From contig CANCXL010000013.1 of NCBI GenBank assembly GCA_947381905.1, positions 1 to 45,714 on the forward strand: a stretch of DNA of 45,714 nucleotides, in the 5' to 3' direction. The translations under genes and the position numbers were made by a program. Positions 39,304 through 45,304 of this stretch are shown piece by piece. How positions within the stretch are numbered: position 1 is the first letter of the stretch; the number at the start of each line of letters is the position of its first letter. The stretch comes from an uncultured Clostridiaceae bacterium. GTDB lineage: Bacteria > Bacillota > Clostridia > TANB77 > CAG-465. The notes under the pieces are model-generated. The model was not told the DNA's origin. It saw nothing but the letters and a program-made list of their open reading frames with translations, and searched no databases.

Positions 39304-39319
39304 TTTTGAGGTGATTTTT

Positions 39320-40186
39320 TTGTCTAATTTTAAAATAGGAGATATAGTAGCAAGAAAGTCATATAATTATGATGTGTTATTTAGAATTAAGTATATTCAT
39401 CCAAATGGAATGGTAGATTTGGTTGGAATTACTGTAAGAATAATAGCAGACGCAGAAGAATATGATTTAAAGCTCATTACAAAACAAGAATTGGATGCAA
39501 GATTAAAAAATATAGAAAATTCTAGGAAAATGAAGATGGATAGGTCGTATAATAATTTAAAAAATAAAAGCTATAAGTTTAAGTATTATAGGGAACCTAA
39601 TCCTTATAATGTTTATCAAAAAGATAAAATAATGAATATGCCAGCTAGAATAATACATATAGACGGAGACCCAGATTACTGTATACAAAGCAAAAACTTA
39701 TATAAAAAAATGGGAGTAAACTCATATATATTTAATATAGAAGAAAAAGAACAGTATAGACAAGTACTACCTCTTTTGCAAAAATATCGACCACAGTTGC
39801 TGGTTTTAACAGGACATGATGCGTTTATAAAAAGAAGGAATGATATATATAATGTTGACAATTATAAAAATTCAAAGTATTTTATTCAAGCGGTGCTAGA
39901 AGCAAGAAAATATGAACATAATTTAGACGATTTAGTAATATTTGCTGGGGCGTGTCAGAGCTATTATGAGGCAATAATATCTGCGGGGGCAAATTTTGCT
40001 AGTGCACCTAAAAGGGTACTCATAGATATGACAGATCCTATGATTGTGGCAGAAAATGTTGCATTTACTCCAGTAAATGAATATGTGTCATTAGAAAATA
40101 TAATATCAAACACAAGAGAGGGAATACAAGGAATTGGTGGCATACAAACTAGAGGCCAACTTAGATATAGTATTCCAGGAATGTAA
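39320..40186 (+). CDS. yabG: Sporulation-specific coat protease YabG
   Basis: Cysteine-type peptidase that processes spore-coat proteins late in sporulation. A frame-opening GTG (39311) lies inside the Shine-Dalgarno GAGGTG, so the TTG at 39320 (6 nt after it) is the likely start, giving 288 aa beginning SNFKIGDIVARKSYN. Conserved blocks are IIHIDGDPDYC, LLVLTGHDAF and VIFAGACQSYYEAI, the last two holding likely catalytic His and Cys. Its presence indicates a spore-forming organism. It ends at a bidirectional terminator shared with rpsT. Confidence 0.93.
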   Translation: MSNFKIGDIVARKSYNYDVLFRIKYIHPNGMVDLVGITVRIIADAEEYDLKLITKQELDARLKNIENSRKMKMDRSYNNLKNKSYKFKYYREPNPYNVYQKDKIMNMPARIIHIDGDPDYCIQSKNLYKKMGVNSYIFNIEEKEQYRQVLPLLQKYRPQLLVLTGHDAFIKRRNDIYNVDNYKNSKYFIQAVLEARKYEHNLDDLVIFAGACQSYYEAIISAGANFASAPKRVLIDMTDPMIVAENVAFTPVNEYVSLENIISNTREGIQGIGGIQTRGQLRYSIPGM

Positions 40187-40228: not shown

Positions 40229-40483
40229 TTATTTGTTAAGCATTTTAGCTAAGCTAGCTTTTTTTCTAGATGCAGTGTTTTTTGCAAGAACACCTTTAGT
40301 CCAAGCTTTGTCTATTTTGCTAACAGCTTCATTAAATAATTCTTCTTTGTTGCTTGCATTTTCTTTAACAGCAGCTTCGAATGCTTTAACAGCTTCTTTA
40401 TAAGCTTTTTTAGTAGCTCTGTTTTGAAGAGTTTTTGCTTCGATAACTTTTACTCTTTTTTTAGCTGATTTAATATTTGGCAT
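40229..40483 (-). CDS. rpsT: 30S ribosomal protein S20
   Basis: Helical protein binding the 5' domain of 16S rRNA. 84 aa, starting MPNIKSAKKRVKVIEAKTLQ, with lysine-rich helices and C-terminal SRKKASLAKMLNK. AAGGAGGTG precedes the ATG. Single-gene unit with its own promoter downstream of folC. Confidence 0.97.
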   Translation of the reverse strand: MPNIKSAKKRVKVIEAKTLQNRATKKAYKEAVKAFEAAVKENASNKEELFNEAVSKIDKAWTKGVLAKNTASRKKASLAKMLNK

Positions 40484-40581: not shown

Positions 40582-41862
40582 CTATTCTTCTGTTAACATA
40601 TTTCTATATTCAGAAGCTAAATAAAGAGAACCAGTTATAAGTATTAAATCTGTATTTTCTTTTTTTATTAAGTAATCATATGCATCTTTTAAAGAAGAAA
40701 AAGATGTGGCATTAATATTTAACTTTTTAGACATTGATATTAGTTTTTTATTATCAACTGAATCCTTATATGTATTATTATATTCTACAAATAAGATTTC
40801 CTGAAAATATGAAGAGATTTCGTTTATAAAACTTTCGTAATCTTTACCTTGTGTAAAAGACATTATTGCATAGTTTTTCTTACCTTTATATTCATGTAAA
40901 AATTCTTTTAGTGCTTTTGCACCAGCAATATTGTGAGATCCATCTAAAAATACAGCTGGAGAGTCGTTTAATTTTTCAAGCCTTGCAGGAAAGTTTGTTT
41001 CAAATATTCCAGTGTTTATAGCAGAAAATGGTATTTTATATCCTAGATTTATAAGTACATTTGATGCGAGTATTACCATTAGCGCATTATATATTTGGTA
41101 TTCGCCAATTAAATTAAGTTTATAATATGTTCCTTTATAACTAAAGTAATTGATGCTATGATTGCTTTTTACTATGTCTAATAATTTTAAACTAGGAACA
41201 TATAGCTTATTATTATTTTTTAAACAATATTGTCTGATTGTTTCTAATACTTCTTTGGTTTGTTTTGGATATGTAATTGTTATTTTATTTTTTTTAATTA
41301 TTCCACATTTTTCACTAGCTATTTCTTTTAATGTATTGCCTAAAAAATTACAATGATCATAGTCAATTAAAGTTATTATAGAAATAATAGTGTTTGTAAT
41401 AATGTTAGTCGGATCAAGTCTTCCTCCCATTCCTACTTCTAAGCAAACTATATCGCAATTGTTTTCTTTAAAATATAAAAATGCTATTGCGGTTATTATT
41501 TCAAATCCAATTGGTGCATCACCATCTTTTTCCATTTCATTTATTATTGGATCTAATTTTTTTATATATTTTTCTAAATCTGCGTTAGATATAAATTCGT
41601 TGTTAATTTGTATTCTTTCATTAAAAGATATTATGTATGGTGAAATATATTTTCCAACTTTATATCCACTGGATTTTAGTACGTTGGCAAGCATAGTAGT
41701 TGTTGAACCTTTACCATTAGTACCCGCAATATGGATAAATTTCAAACTATCTTGTGGACACTCTAATTTTTTCATTAGTTTTTCCATACGAGAAGTATCT
41801 TTAACATCTTTTATTGAGTTTCTCTTTTTATATATGTAAGTAATAATTTCTTCATTTGTCAT
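40582..41862 (-). CDS. folC: Folylpolyglutamate synthase / dihydrofolate synthase
   Basis: Adds glutamates to folates (and possibly joins dihydropteroate to glutamate). 426 aa. ATP site IAGTNGKGSTTTML (about 44-57), SPYIISFNERIQIN, LEVGMGGRLDPTN and the late SHNIAGAKAL motif place it in the Mur-ligase-like FolC family. GGAGGT precedes the ATG. It follows the nucleotide kinase gene by 35 nt on the same strand, so a thymidylate/folate unit is likely, since methylene-folate feeds thymidylate synthesis. Confidence 0.95.
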   Translation of the reverse strand: MTNEEIITYIYKKRNSIKDVKDTSRMEKLMKKLECPQDSLKFIHIAGTNGKGSTTTMLANVLKSSGYKVGKYISPYIISFNERIQINNEFISNADLEKYIKKLDPIINEMEKDGDAPIGFEIITAIAFLYFKENNCDIVCLEVGMGGRLDPTNIITNTIISIITLIDYDHCNFLGNTLKEIASEKCGIIKKNKITITYPKQTKEVLETIRQYCLKNNNKLYVPSLKLLDIVKSNHSINYFSYKGTYYKLNLIGEYQIYNALMVILASNVLINLGYKIPFSAINTGIFETNFPARLEKLNDSPAVFLDGSHNIAGAKALKEFLHEYKGKKNYAIMSFTQGKDYESFINEISSYFQEILFVEYNNTYKDSVDNKKLISMSKKLNINATSFSSLKDAYDYLIKKENTDLILITGSLYLASEYRNMLTEE

Positions 41863-41897: not shown

Positions 41898-42473
41898 TTA
41901 AAAGTTAAGTATGTCCTTTATTTTAGATTTTAACTCTTGTTCATTGCAATCATTAGATACTTTGAACACTTTTATATTTGGATAATTAGATGAAATTTCA
42001 TCTGCCATCTTAAGATATTGATTTTGTTGATTTATACTGCTTTCAATAGTAAATTTAGCATAATCTAGTACAGCTTTACCGTCTCTTGATAAACGATTTG
42101 CAAATAAATCAGTATTTTCAAGATACAAAGTAATGTAATATATATCAAAATCAAGTTTGCTAAATTTTTCTAGCAAGTCTTCATATACATCCGAAAATTT
42201 ATACTGCTTAAAATCTAGTCTGCAATAAATTTCTTCTGTGAAAAATGTTCTATCAAAAACTAAATTTATACTTTTGTTTTCCATTCTTTTTATATAATCA
42301 AGCAAATCTACATACATATCTTTTGCTTTTTCTTTTCCAGATGGAGTGCTATCGGATGTACCACATAGCCTATATAAGTTAGTGTATTTTAGCCCATGAC
42401 GAATAAAATCTGTTACTGTTGTTTTTCCGGCACCTTGAGGGCCTTCAACTATAATTAATTTTGAGTTTGCCAT
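41898..42473 (-). CDS. P-loop deoxynucleoside / thymidylate kinase-like protein
   Basis: 191 aa with Walker A GPQGAGKTT (11-19), a DR motif in NLVFDRTFFTEE (near 75-86) and a LID-like RLSRDGKAVLD. The overall pattern resembles thymidylate or deoxynucleoside kinases, but it is not a standard Tmk. An in-frame GTG precedes; the ATG at 42473 is preferred because AAGGTG lies 7 nt upstream. It starts just after the ThyX-like gene, suggesting shared work in dTMP metabolism. The exact substrate is unknown. Confidence 0.7.
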   Translation of the reverse strand: MANSKLIIVEGPQGAGKTTVTDFIRHGLKYTNLYRLCGTSDSTPSGKEKAKDMYVDLLDYIKRMENKSINLVFDRTFFTEEIYCRLDFKQYKFSDVYEDLLEKFSKLDFDIYYITLYLENTDLFANRLSRDGKAVLDYAKFTIESSINQQNQYLKMADEISSNYPNIKVFKVSNDCNEQELKSKIKDILNF

Positions 42474-42483
42474 TTTTATCACC

Positions 42484-43140
42484 TTAACCTTCTCTTGGAG
42501 TAGTGATTAATTCACTATATGGAAATTCTTTTTCTATAAATTTACAAAAATCTCTAAATTCTCTTTGTTTATGATTTCTTCTTGCTCTATAAACATTTCT
42601 CATTATTTCATAATTTCCAGTCCATGTAGATTTAAAGTTATAACTTTGTGGTGAGTCAAAGACAATTTCTCTCCATAAAGACATGGCTTCTTCCATTTTA
42701 CCATCAGTTTTTAATTGTTGAAATTCAGCAATTCTTTTATTTAAATCTTCAATAACATATTTTCTAAATGGAGTAATATTTATATTTCCTTGTTCATCGT
42801 CTAAGCTAAAATCGTCAAAAGTTAGTAGTCGTGTACCAAGTTTATGCATTCTGCTTGTGCTATTTCTTACTGTAGCAACTTTATATGTGTCAAAATCCCA
42901 CCACCAAGACATTGGAGCAGTTATGTCCATTGATACAAATATTTGTCTTAAAAATTTAGAATGATCAGATCCTGACTTAGTCAATTTTAATGCTAATGCT
43001 AGATCTTTTTCACCTACTACGTATTTTCCTGTTTCTTTATCATAATAACTATCACTTTTATCCCAAGATTCTAAAGGGTTACGCATTCCCCTTAATGCAC
43101 CTTCAAAATTTAAGACTTCTAAATTTTCTACTTTTATCAT
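42484..43140 (-). CDS. Divergent ThyX-like (FAD-dependent thymidylate synthase family) protein
   Basis: 218 aa. The region ITAPMSWWWDFDTYK (73-87) followed by VATVRNSTSRMHKLG aligns without gaps to the ThyX core, and the C-terminal RARRNHKQREFRDFCKFI (186-203) resembles the ThyX end. The signature RHRx7S is altered: RHR becomes Thr85-Tyr86-Lys87 and the Ser position is Thr95, while Arg97 is kept. It may be a ThyX relative with changed chemistry. GGGAGG precedes the ATG at 43140; a longer frame exists upstream. First gene of a unit with a nucleotide kinase and folC. Confidence 0.55.
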   Translation of the reverse strand: MIKVENLEVLNFEGALRGMRNPLESWDKSDSYYDKETGKYVVGEKDLALALKLTKSGSDHSKFLRQIFVSMDITAPMSWWWDFDTYKVATVRNSTSRMHKLGTRLLTFDDFSLDDEQGNINITPFRKYVIEDLNKRIAEFQQLKTDGKMEEAMSLWREIVFDSPQSYNFKSTWTGNYEIMRNVYRARRNHKQREFRDFCKFIEKEFPYSELITTPREG

Positions 43141-43165
43141 ATTTCTACCTCCCAAAGTTATCAAT

Positions 43166-43606: not shown

Positions 43607-43924
43607 ATGTCAAAAGAACAAACTAAAAAAATGAGAATAAGACTTAAAGCTTATGATCATGTTGTACTTGAACAAGCTGCAACAAAAATTGTTGAAGTAG
43701 CTAGAAAAACTGGATCTGAAGTATCAGGACCAATTCCACTACCTACTGAAAAAGAAATCATTACAATATTACGTTCTCCACACAAACATAAAGATTCTAG
43801 AGAACAATTTGAAATGAGAACTCACAAAAGAGTTATAGATGTTCTTGCACCTAACCAAGCAACTGTTGACGCATTAATGTCAATTGATATGCCAGCTGGT
43901 GTAGATATCGAAGTTAAATTATAA
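43607..43924 (+). CDS. rpsJ: 30S ribosomal protein S10
   Basis: Small-subunit head protein, also the NusE antitermination factor. 105 aa. [20 protein letters not shown] at the N-terminus and [19 protein letters not shown] are conserved. AAGGAG lies 10 nt before the ATG and may be masked by the leader helix over the start codon. First gene of the S10 operon. Confidence 0.98.
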
Positions 43925-44037: not shown

Positions 44038-44664
44038 ATGGTTAAAGAAATTTACGGAACAAAAGTTGGTATGACTCAAATTTTTGATGAAAATGGAGTA
44101 GCTATACCAGTTACAGCTATCGAAGCTAAACCTTTAACAGTAGTTGCTAAAAAAACTGCAGATAAAGATGGATACAATGCAATTGTAGTTAGCTTTGGAG
44201 ATGTTAAAGAAAAAAATGCAAACAAACCTCACAAAGGAATATTTGCAAAAGCAGGTGTTGAAATTCAAAAATACCTAAGAGAAATTAAAGTTGAAAATGT
44301 AGATGAATATGAAATTGGAAGCAAAATCACTGTTGATGCTTTTACAACTGAAGACAATGTAGATGTACAAGGAACTTCAAAAGGTAAAGGATTCCAAGGT
44401 GTTATCAAGAGACATGGACAACACAGAGGACCTATGGGACATGGTTCTATGTATCACAGAAGACCAGGTTCAATGGGATCTACAACAACTCCAGGTAGAG
44501 TATTTAAAGGTAAAAAATTACCAGGACACATGGGAAGTAAAACTTCTACAATTTTAAACTTAGAAGTTGTTAAAGTTGACGCTGACAAAAATGTTATTTT
44601 AGTAAAAGGTTCTATTCCAGGAGCTAAAAAAGCTGTTGTTAGAGTAAGAAAAAGTGTAAAGTAG
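44038..44664 (+). CDS. rplC: 50S ribosomal protein L3
   Basis: Early assembly protein near the peptidyl transferase centre. 208 aa, with [18 protein letters not shown] at the N-terminus, [12 protein letters not shown], and the central loop [18 protein letters not shown] with [21 protein letters not shown] precedes the ATG. rplD follows after 19 nt. Confidence 0.98.
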
Positions 44665-44683: not shown

Positions 44684-45304
44684 ATGCTAAAAGTTGACGT
44701 TTTAAATATGGATGGTAAAAAAGTAGAAGACATCGAGTTAAACGAAAATGTATTTGGTATTGAAGTAAATGAAGTTGCTGTACATGCTGCACTTGTAAAC
44801 TTCCAAGCTAACCAAAGACAAGGAACTCAATCTACTAAAACAAGATCTGAAGTAAGTGGTGGCGGAAGAAAGCCATGGAAACAAAAAGGAACTGGTAGAG
44901 CTAGACAAGGATCTATAAGAGCTCCACAATGGATTAAAGGTGGTATTGCTTTAGGACCAAAACCTAGATCATACAGATATACAATTCCTAAGAAAGTTAA
45001 ACAACTTGCATTCAAATCTGTACTTACTTCTAAAGTACAAGAAGGAAAACTAGTTGTAGTTGATAAAATAGAACTTAACGAAATTAAAACAAAAAATATG
45101 GTTAATGTTCTTACAAATCTAAAAGTAAACAATGCATTAGTTATGCTTGATGAAAAGAACTTAAATGTTCAAGCATCAGCTAGAAACATTGAAAATGTAA
45201 AAACTACTTTAGTAAACACTATGAATATATTTGATTTATTAAAATATGATTCATTAGTAGTAACTAAAGATGCTGTTAAGAAATTAGAGGAGGTGTACGC
45301 ATAA
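44684..45304 (+). CDS. rplD: 50S ribosomal protein L4
   Basis: Lines the exit tunnel; in E. coli it also autoregulates the S10 operon. 206 aa. The tunnel loop RSEVSGGGRKPWKQKGTGRA and RQGSIRAPQWIKGG are intact, so no macrolide-resistance-type change is evident there. GGAGGAG precedes the ATG. Its stop overlaps the start of rplW by 1 nt (TAATG). Confidence 0.98.
   Translation: MLKVDVLNMDGKKVEDIELNENVFGIEVNEVAVHAALVNFQANQRQGTQSTKTRSEVSGGGRKPWKQKGTGRARQGSIRAPQWIKGGIALGPKPRSYRYTIPKKVKQLAFKSVLTSKVQEGKLVVVDKIELNEIKTKNMVNVLTNLKVNNALVMLDEKNLNVQASARNIENVKTTLVNTMNIFDLLKYDSLVVTKDAVKKLEEVYA

Follow-up and report, generated by a model that had tools for sequence, protein, structure and literature searches.

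Enzymes of the ThyX type, the flavin-dependent thymidylate synthases (EC 2.1.1.148), are defined by the signature RHRx7S; they bind FAD and form homotetramers with shared active sites. Since humans lack ThyX, it is being explored as an antibacterial target. ThyA makes dihydrofolate and needs DHFR, whereas ThyX does not, and genomes with thyX are often without folA, according to passages in PMC9931769 and PMC1971073. Within the ThyX active site, R78 is directed towards N1/C2=O of the reduced flavin, whose anionic form it is reported to stabilise (PMC11940539), and R174 activates dUMP with the assistance of S88 and Y91 (PMC11940539 and PMC8316439; role of R174, PMC8316439). PolB, a UMP/dUMP methylase of the ThyX type from polyoxin synthesis (PDB 4p5a, 4p5b), serves antibiotic synthesis beside a second thyX, as stated in part of PMC5954106.

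The window (the whole stretch of DNA that was analysed, 45,714 nucleotides) contains an open reading frame on the minus strand, with its ATG at 43140 and its stop codon ending at 42484, that encodes a protein of 218 aa, P0001, similar in size to ThyX. A sequence-only reading of the same DNA had placed the gene correctly at 42484-43140, leaving the strand unsaid, and had named the neighbouring nucleotide kinase and folC rightly, with their thymidylate context. Genomes with this gene are called carriers below.

40229-40483, minus strand: rpsT (ribosomal protein S20), which bounds the thymidylate-synthase slot on one side, from the ORF and gene order
40582-41862, minus strand: folC (folylpolyglutamate synthase), an ORF; of the 12 other carriers in the comparison, 11 have it beside the P0001 gene
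41898-42482, minus strand: P-loop (deoxy)nucleotide kinase-like gene, directly downstream of the P0001 gene; GTG start at 42482, ATG at 42473 possible
42484-43140, minus strand: P0001, predicted ThyX-fold protein of PHROG 6721 and proposed thymidylate synthase, 218 aa, from the translation, the PHROG match and an AlphaFold model
43148-43153, minus strand: GGGAGG, putative ribosome-binding site of the P0001 gene read in the sequence, 7 bases upstream of the ATG
43607-43924, plus strand: rpsJ (ribosomal protein S10), the other border of the slot, divergent, from the ORF and gene order
44038-44664, after rpsJ on the same divergent side: rplC, an ORF
44684-45304, after rplC: rplD, an ORF

The names folC, rpsT, rpsJ, rplC, rplD and kinase were assigned from the translations. 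A 291-aa protein within the ribosomal-protein region (39311-40186) appears to resemble the sporulation peptidase YabG. The kinase-like gene matched the NCBIfam dTMP kinase model at E 1e-4, below the cut-off, and Pfam dNK and Thymidylate_kin weakly; that it encodes a dNMP/dTMP kinase is a guess.

The predicted fold and the active-site residues of P0001

Profile searches placed P0001 in PHROG family 6721 (E 9e-64), annotated as 'unknown function', and returned no match in NCBIfam. Against Pfam Thy1 (PF02511) it scored 12.5 bits (E 0.13), short of the gathering cut-off of 24.8 bits, and the Pfam search gave no match to the ThyA family (PF00303). Two orthologues scored 20.1 and 21.1 bits against Thy1 in the genome search, also under the cut-off; the sub-threshold Thy1 matches in the carriers G001 and G015 are P0001 orthologues themselves. 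When the 104 members of a diverse family alignment were scanned singly, all matched PHROG 6721, and 24 matched Thy1 at E<=1 (best 3e-5), the runner-up Pfam family being matched by only 5. Kinship with COPI_C (E 0.051) or Hsp104 (E 0.12) was backed neither by the fold nor by the relatives. A family profile searched against PDB sequences found nothing at E<=10. Alignment of the family to ThyX with hhalign reached E 0.037 over residues 157-189 only, and comparison with ThyX alignments over the full length was not significant.

Sequence similarity to ThyX is therefore weak, but kinship with ThyX is settled by the predicted fold. An AlphaFold model of the P0001 monomer built with 104 sequences had a pLDDT of 93.7 and a pTM of 0.86, confidence being lowest at residues 81-100, the active-site stretch. 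Its best structural match (Foldseek, VIA-align) was ThyX of H. pylori, with Z 14.9, 17% identity and a deviation of 2.5 A across 188 residues. ThyX and PolB made up the whole of the 47 top PDB entries (Z 14.9 to 11.1; PolB at Z 12.5), and the first unrelated entry had Z 5.7. The structural matches of P0001, which is proposed to make the same product as ThyA, are ThyX; ThyA did not appear among the matches listed. A model of the more distant branch B (first sequence from L140; branches defined below) gave a ThyX-type match at Z 13.5 and the next unrelated one at 4.2. Structure prediction and superposition thus bear out the ThyX-like character first proposed from the sequence, and no fold unlike ThyX appeared among the 47 top entries. 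On the predicted fold, P0001 represents a sister family of ThyX that lies outside the usual definition of ThyX, both by motif and by Pfam cut-off.

The 104-row alignment was divided at 33% identity to P0001 into branch A (63 proteins) and branch B (41 proteins). Three groups of codons correspond to the active-site positions considered here.

42880-42888, minus strand: codons of T85-Y86-K87, which align with ThyX R78-H79-R80; branch B has R-Y-H at these positions
42844-42861, minus strand: codons of S94-x-S96-x-M98-H99, near-invariant family signature in the active-site loop region, from the 104-row alignment
42571-42582, minus strand: codons of R187 to H190, with R187 as the counterpart of ThyX R174, which activates dUMP, from the alignment and hhalign

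Residues 85-87 of P0001 read T-Y-K where ThyX has RHR, as the sequence-only reading had it, and the rest of the protein contains no RHR. This rewriting is kept in nearly all of branch A, in which positions 82-87 read E/D-x-D-T-Y-K (T85 in 61/63, Y86 in 63/63 and K87 in 62/63). In branch B the same positions read Q-x-x-R-Y-H (Q82 in 30/41, R85 and Y86 each in 41/41 and H87 in 33/41), and there is no gap between the branches at 82-87, which supports the register with R78-H79-R80. Branch B looks as if it keeps Q75 and R78 of ThyX, as Q82 and R85; branch A is without the R78 arginine. The presence of R85 throughout branch B, and of Q82 in most of it, argues for continuity of the family with ThyX.

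The signature loop that follows is close to invariant (S94 in 104/104 proteins; S96, M98 and H99 each in 103/104), whereas position 95 is variable in the family (C, T or Q). The string TYKx7T reported earlier is literally right, with T95 in P0001, but the accompanying view that the ThyX serine has become this threonine is doubtful: since position 95 varies and S94 and S96 are fixed, the equivalent of ThyX S88 is probably S94 or S96. ThyX has its S88/R90/Y91 loop where the P0001 family has S-x-S-x-M-H, and the latter may do the same job, with H99 possibly replacing Y91. Further downstream, R187 and H190 were found in 104/104 proteins, N176 in 99/104 and Y177 in 103/104. R187 was paired by hhalign, within the segment given above, with a ThyX arginine that is presumably R174 in T. 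maritima numbering, and N176 is in register with a conserved ThyX asparagine.

An inactive relative had been one of the readings offered for this gene, and the lost RHR signature together with low model confidence at 81-100 could be taken to mean that P0001 is an inactive or regulatory relative of ThyX, carried along with ribosomal-protein and folC genes. This is very unlikely indeed. Mean identity to the window copy across the 12 other carriers was 90.8% for P0001, equal in degree to that of ribosomal protein L3 (91.6%), with the kinase at 79.1% and folC at 71.5%; R187 and H190 are invariant; and no other synthase was found in the 13 carriers, save a weak ThyA-like match in one of them (G002).

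Distribution of thymidylate synthases and a shared chromosomal slot

Profile searches of the source genome, that of a gut bacterium (1.73 Mb, 97% complete), detected no ThyX, no ThyA and no divergent two-domain ThyX, which answers the earlier question of whether it holds another thyA or thyX. Comparison was extended to related genomes, with the limit that MAGs are incomplete. The P0001 gene was found in 13 of 36 genomes of the bacterial family, all 13 in one genus. Full-length ThyA or ThyX was present in 0/13 carriers vs 19/23 other genomes of the family, ThyA in 9 and ThyX in 10, a decayed ThyX copy in G031, which has ThyA, being left out of the latter class. The only overlap was the 27.5-bit ThyA-like stretch in carrier G002. 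Within the genus, ThyA or ThyX occurred in 0/13 carriers vs 11/15 non-carriers (Fisher 7e-5, relatedness ignored), the weak G002 match and a thyA fragment at a contig edge in G018 being taken as absent. The G002 stretch is a 248-aa protein (L303:7092-7838), perhaps phage-borne.

At the level of the order (288 genomes, a set inferred to be G000-G291 minus four under 90% completeness), ThyA or ThyX was found in 2/13 carriers vs 255/275 non-carriers. Seven ThyA matches below 100 bits (G002, G096, G114, G144, G157, G207 and G289) were not counted as ThyA; six of these genomes have ThyX, so that only G002 is affected and its inclusion would make 3/13. The two exceptions, G149 and G190, have copies that are 42% and 39% identical and lie outside the slot described below, the one between topoisomerase II and DNA ligase genes, the other on a 5.3 kb contig with a phage-type exonuclease and a repressor. 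None of the three synthases was found in 20/275 non-carriers, among them G003, G008 and G014 of the genus, so either the absence of ThyA and ThyX is survivable or the searches miss something. In G014 (99% complete, 10 contigs) thymidine kinase was not found either.

A hidden divergent ThyX in the carriers was considered and rejected, a profile of six two-domain ThyX proteins matching 0/13. Two-domain proteins of this kind, of about 380-430 aa, occur in the sister genomes G012, G016, G019, G021, G023 and G027 (L049-L055; e.g. L053:856-2004 and L049:1426-2568). They have an S-A-R-Y loop in the N-terminal half and RHR in the C-terminal half, as if the parts of the active site were divided between two half-domains.

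The chromosomal slot from rpsT to rpsJ holds a thymidylate synthase gene of some kind, P0001 counted, in 27/32 genomes; in some of these only one border was seen, either because the contig or the sequence compared stops short or because the second border gene went undetected. It is occupied by P0001 in 13/13 carriers, by thyA in 8/9 ThyA genomes (G006, G013, G017, G026, G028, G029, G034 and G035; not G031) and by thyX in 6/10 ThyX genomes (G012, G016, G019, G023, G030 and G033; not G021, G024, G027 and G032). P0001 thus shares its place with both ThyA and ThyX. Sister genomes have thyA-dhfr pairs, whereas no DHFR gene lies beside P0001. The kinase gene adjoins P0001 in 12/13 carriers; it is present in 20/36 genomes of the family and also touches thyA in two of them (G006, G026) and thyX in two more (G016, G030). 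Altogether, 16 of these 20 genomes have the kinase beside the resident thymidylate synthase, whichever kind that is.

A tree of 24 genomes built from rpsJ, rplC and rplD has labels that fit a single gain of P0001. G024 is nested within the carrier clade with support 100/100, and a grouping of the 12 carriers apart from G024 was rejected (p-AU 0.0009). This genome has a canonical ThyX on another contig, and nothing was recognised between its kinase gene and rpsJ. G024 is a reverse swap, in which ThyX lies elsewhere and the P0001 gene was lost. Only about two independent swaps, one either way, therefore underlie the complementarity of P0001 with the known synthases, and the Fisher values (7e-5 and 2e-10) overstate its strength because the genomes were treated as independent when there were about two events. 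The argument for a role as thymidylate synthase depends chiefly on the shared slot and on the reverse swap.

As a genomic proxy for the folate product, DHFR was present in 8/9 ThyA genomes, 0/10 ThyX genomes and 2/13 P0001 genomes (G001 and G015); 11/13 carriers thus resemble the DHFR-poor genomes of ThyX. The few bacteria with neither synthase are reported, in a passage of PMC1971073, to have thymidine kinase. Thymidine kinase was found in 9/13 carriers, in which salvage could supply dTMP. The carriers without it are G001 and G010 (96% complete, one of the two with 7% contamination) and the less complete G009 and G022. Pure salvage was rejected as an explanation: thymidine kinase occurs in 30/36 genomes of the family but accompanies synthases of all types, and it is missing from four carriers.

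Relatives in phages and plasmids, and the proposed function

PHROG 6721 is a widespread, unnamed family in phages of anaerobes. One scan of viral contigs confirmed at least 590 stretches with relatives, and a second, including the distant branch, gave 341 that may overlap with those of the first. Relatives occur in phages of Enterocloster, Clostridioides, Fusobacterium and Desulfovibrio and in plasmids of Monoglobus, Selenomonas, Ilyobacter, Cetobacterium and Clostridioides, annotated as 'hypothetical protein' or unannotated. P0001 belongs to the same family as the phage genes but is chromosomal, with one fixed place in a bacterial clade. No description of the family as a thymidylate synthase was found in the literature searched, most subscription papers and preprints lying outside that search.

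Several relatives lie among genes of deoxynucleotide synthesis. In Ilyobacter the family gene directly follows nrdD and nrdG, in Desulfovibrio phage ProddE it is a few genes from nrdD/nrdG, on a Selenomonas plasmid it is near dUTPase and in Enterocloster phage PMBT24 it is near a deoxynucleoside monophosphate kinase. Other relatives have none of these beside them: the genes directly flanking the relative in phage phiCDIF1296T of C. difficile and in Fusobacterium phage Fnu1 are different in type or unrecognised. We compiled 117 neighbours, consisting of 115 direct neighbours on viral contigs and two reductase genes one place further that were added deliberately; one split family gene was left out. 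The commonest Pfam family, by raw counts, was dUTPase (5), followed by the guanylate-kinase type (4), cell-wall hydrolase (4) and dCTP deaminase-like (3). Ribonucleotide reductase accounted for 3, and the deliberately added pair may be among them.

Taken with the slot and the reverse swap, P0001 very probably makes dTMP, as a ThyX-fold thymidylate synthase with a rewritten active site, and the best reading is that it is the sole de novo source of dTMP in the source organism. The family, otherwise a phage gene, would have replaced the ordinary ThyX or ThyA in this lineage. We infer the product, the flavin and folate cofactors, the oligomer, the roles of single residues and that of the kinase as follows. 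P0001 would form an oligomer of the ThyX type with active sites between subunits, in which R187 (ThyX R174) would bind and activate dUMP. Reduced flavin would pass on the methylene group from methylene-tetrahydrofolate and then a hydride, giving dTMP and tetrahydrofolate; with tetrahydrofolate as product, no DHFR recycling would be needed. The place of RHR and the S88/Y91 loop would be taken by Y86 and K87 in branch A and by R85-Y86-H87 in branch B, together with R/K65 and the S-x-S-x-M-H loop. The neighbouring kinase may phosphorylate dTMP or another dNMP.

Phages make modified DNA bases, most of the relatives found are phage genes, and a changed substrate or a part in nucleotide modification had been suggested for P0001 from its sequence. 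Along these lines, P0001 could methylate or hydroxymethylate another uridine or cytidine nucleotide, with dTMP coming from thymidine salvage. The differences from ThyX in RHR and in the loop residues, the occurrence of PolB (Z 12.5) among the structural matches and the thymidine kinase of 9/13 carriers would all agree with this. We consider it improbable, however: a gene in the place that sister genomes give to thyA or thyX can be explained without such a substrate, P0001 was exchanged for ThyX in G024, four carriers are without thymidine kinase, and the dUTPase and dCTP deaminase genes beside the phage relatives lead to dUMP, the substrate of thymidylate synthase. PolB itself differs in setting, having a nucleoside-antibiotic cluster and a second thyX, whereas the window has ribosomal-protein and folate genes and the P0001 genome shows no other synthase. 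An active thymidylate synthase fits the observations better; the inactive, new-substrate and modification readings fit less well.

A flavin- and folate-dependent chemistry like that of ThyX is likely for P0001 but less sure than the dTMP product, because the flavin-holding arginine is gone in branch A; with Thr at the place of R78, use of flavin is not assured. A thymidylate synthase working by other chemistry, with a different carbon donor or reductant or with flavin held differently, is, as to product, a sub-case of the main reading and seems rather unlikely. It would suit the replacement by Thr, in 61/63 branch A proteins, of the residue said in part of PMC11940539 to stabilise flavin, the divergence at H79, R80 and the S88/Y91 loop, and the presence of the family, in anaerobic bacteria and the phages that infect them, close to genes for anaerobic ribonucleotide reductase. 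It accords less well with branch B, which has R85 in 41/41 and Q82 in 30/41, with the invariant R187 (R174), and with the lack of DHFR in most carriers, as ThyX chemistry predicts.

A broader proposal, which we put forward tentatively and hold to be possible but not the likelier outcome, is that PHROG 6721 constitutes a third working kind of thymidylate synthase. It would be derived from ThyX, with a rebuilt flavin/folate site and the S-x-S-x-M-H loop, and would have been spread by phages of anaerobes. On at least one occasion a bacterial clade would have captured it to serve as its only source of dTMP, and it may use non-ThyX carbon transfer. If P0001 is a thymidylate synthase, a large unnamed phage family acquires a function, bacteria seemingly without the enzyme have a means of making T, and the RHR signature by which ThyX is recognised is not required. 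If annotated by the RHR motif or the Pfam cut-off, such organisms would be taken for thymidine auxotrophs. A different active site on the same fold also bears on the generality of ThyX inhibitors, and the family raises the testable question of which residues are truly needed for ThyX chemistry.

Two further arrangements were seen among the relatives. The family member in G149 (L296:3663-10651) directly follows type II topoisomerase genes and is followed by NAD-dependent DNA ligase, and that in Monoglobus (L021:4036-6621) also comes after type II topoisomerase genes, in a dnaN-recF-gyrB run. Four viral contigs (L100:4004-4672, L105:1764-2378, L133:4130-4654 and L139:4001-4651) have the family gene broken into two reading frames, which could reflect stop-codon reassignment, an intron or error.
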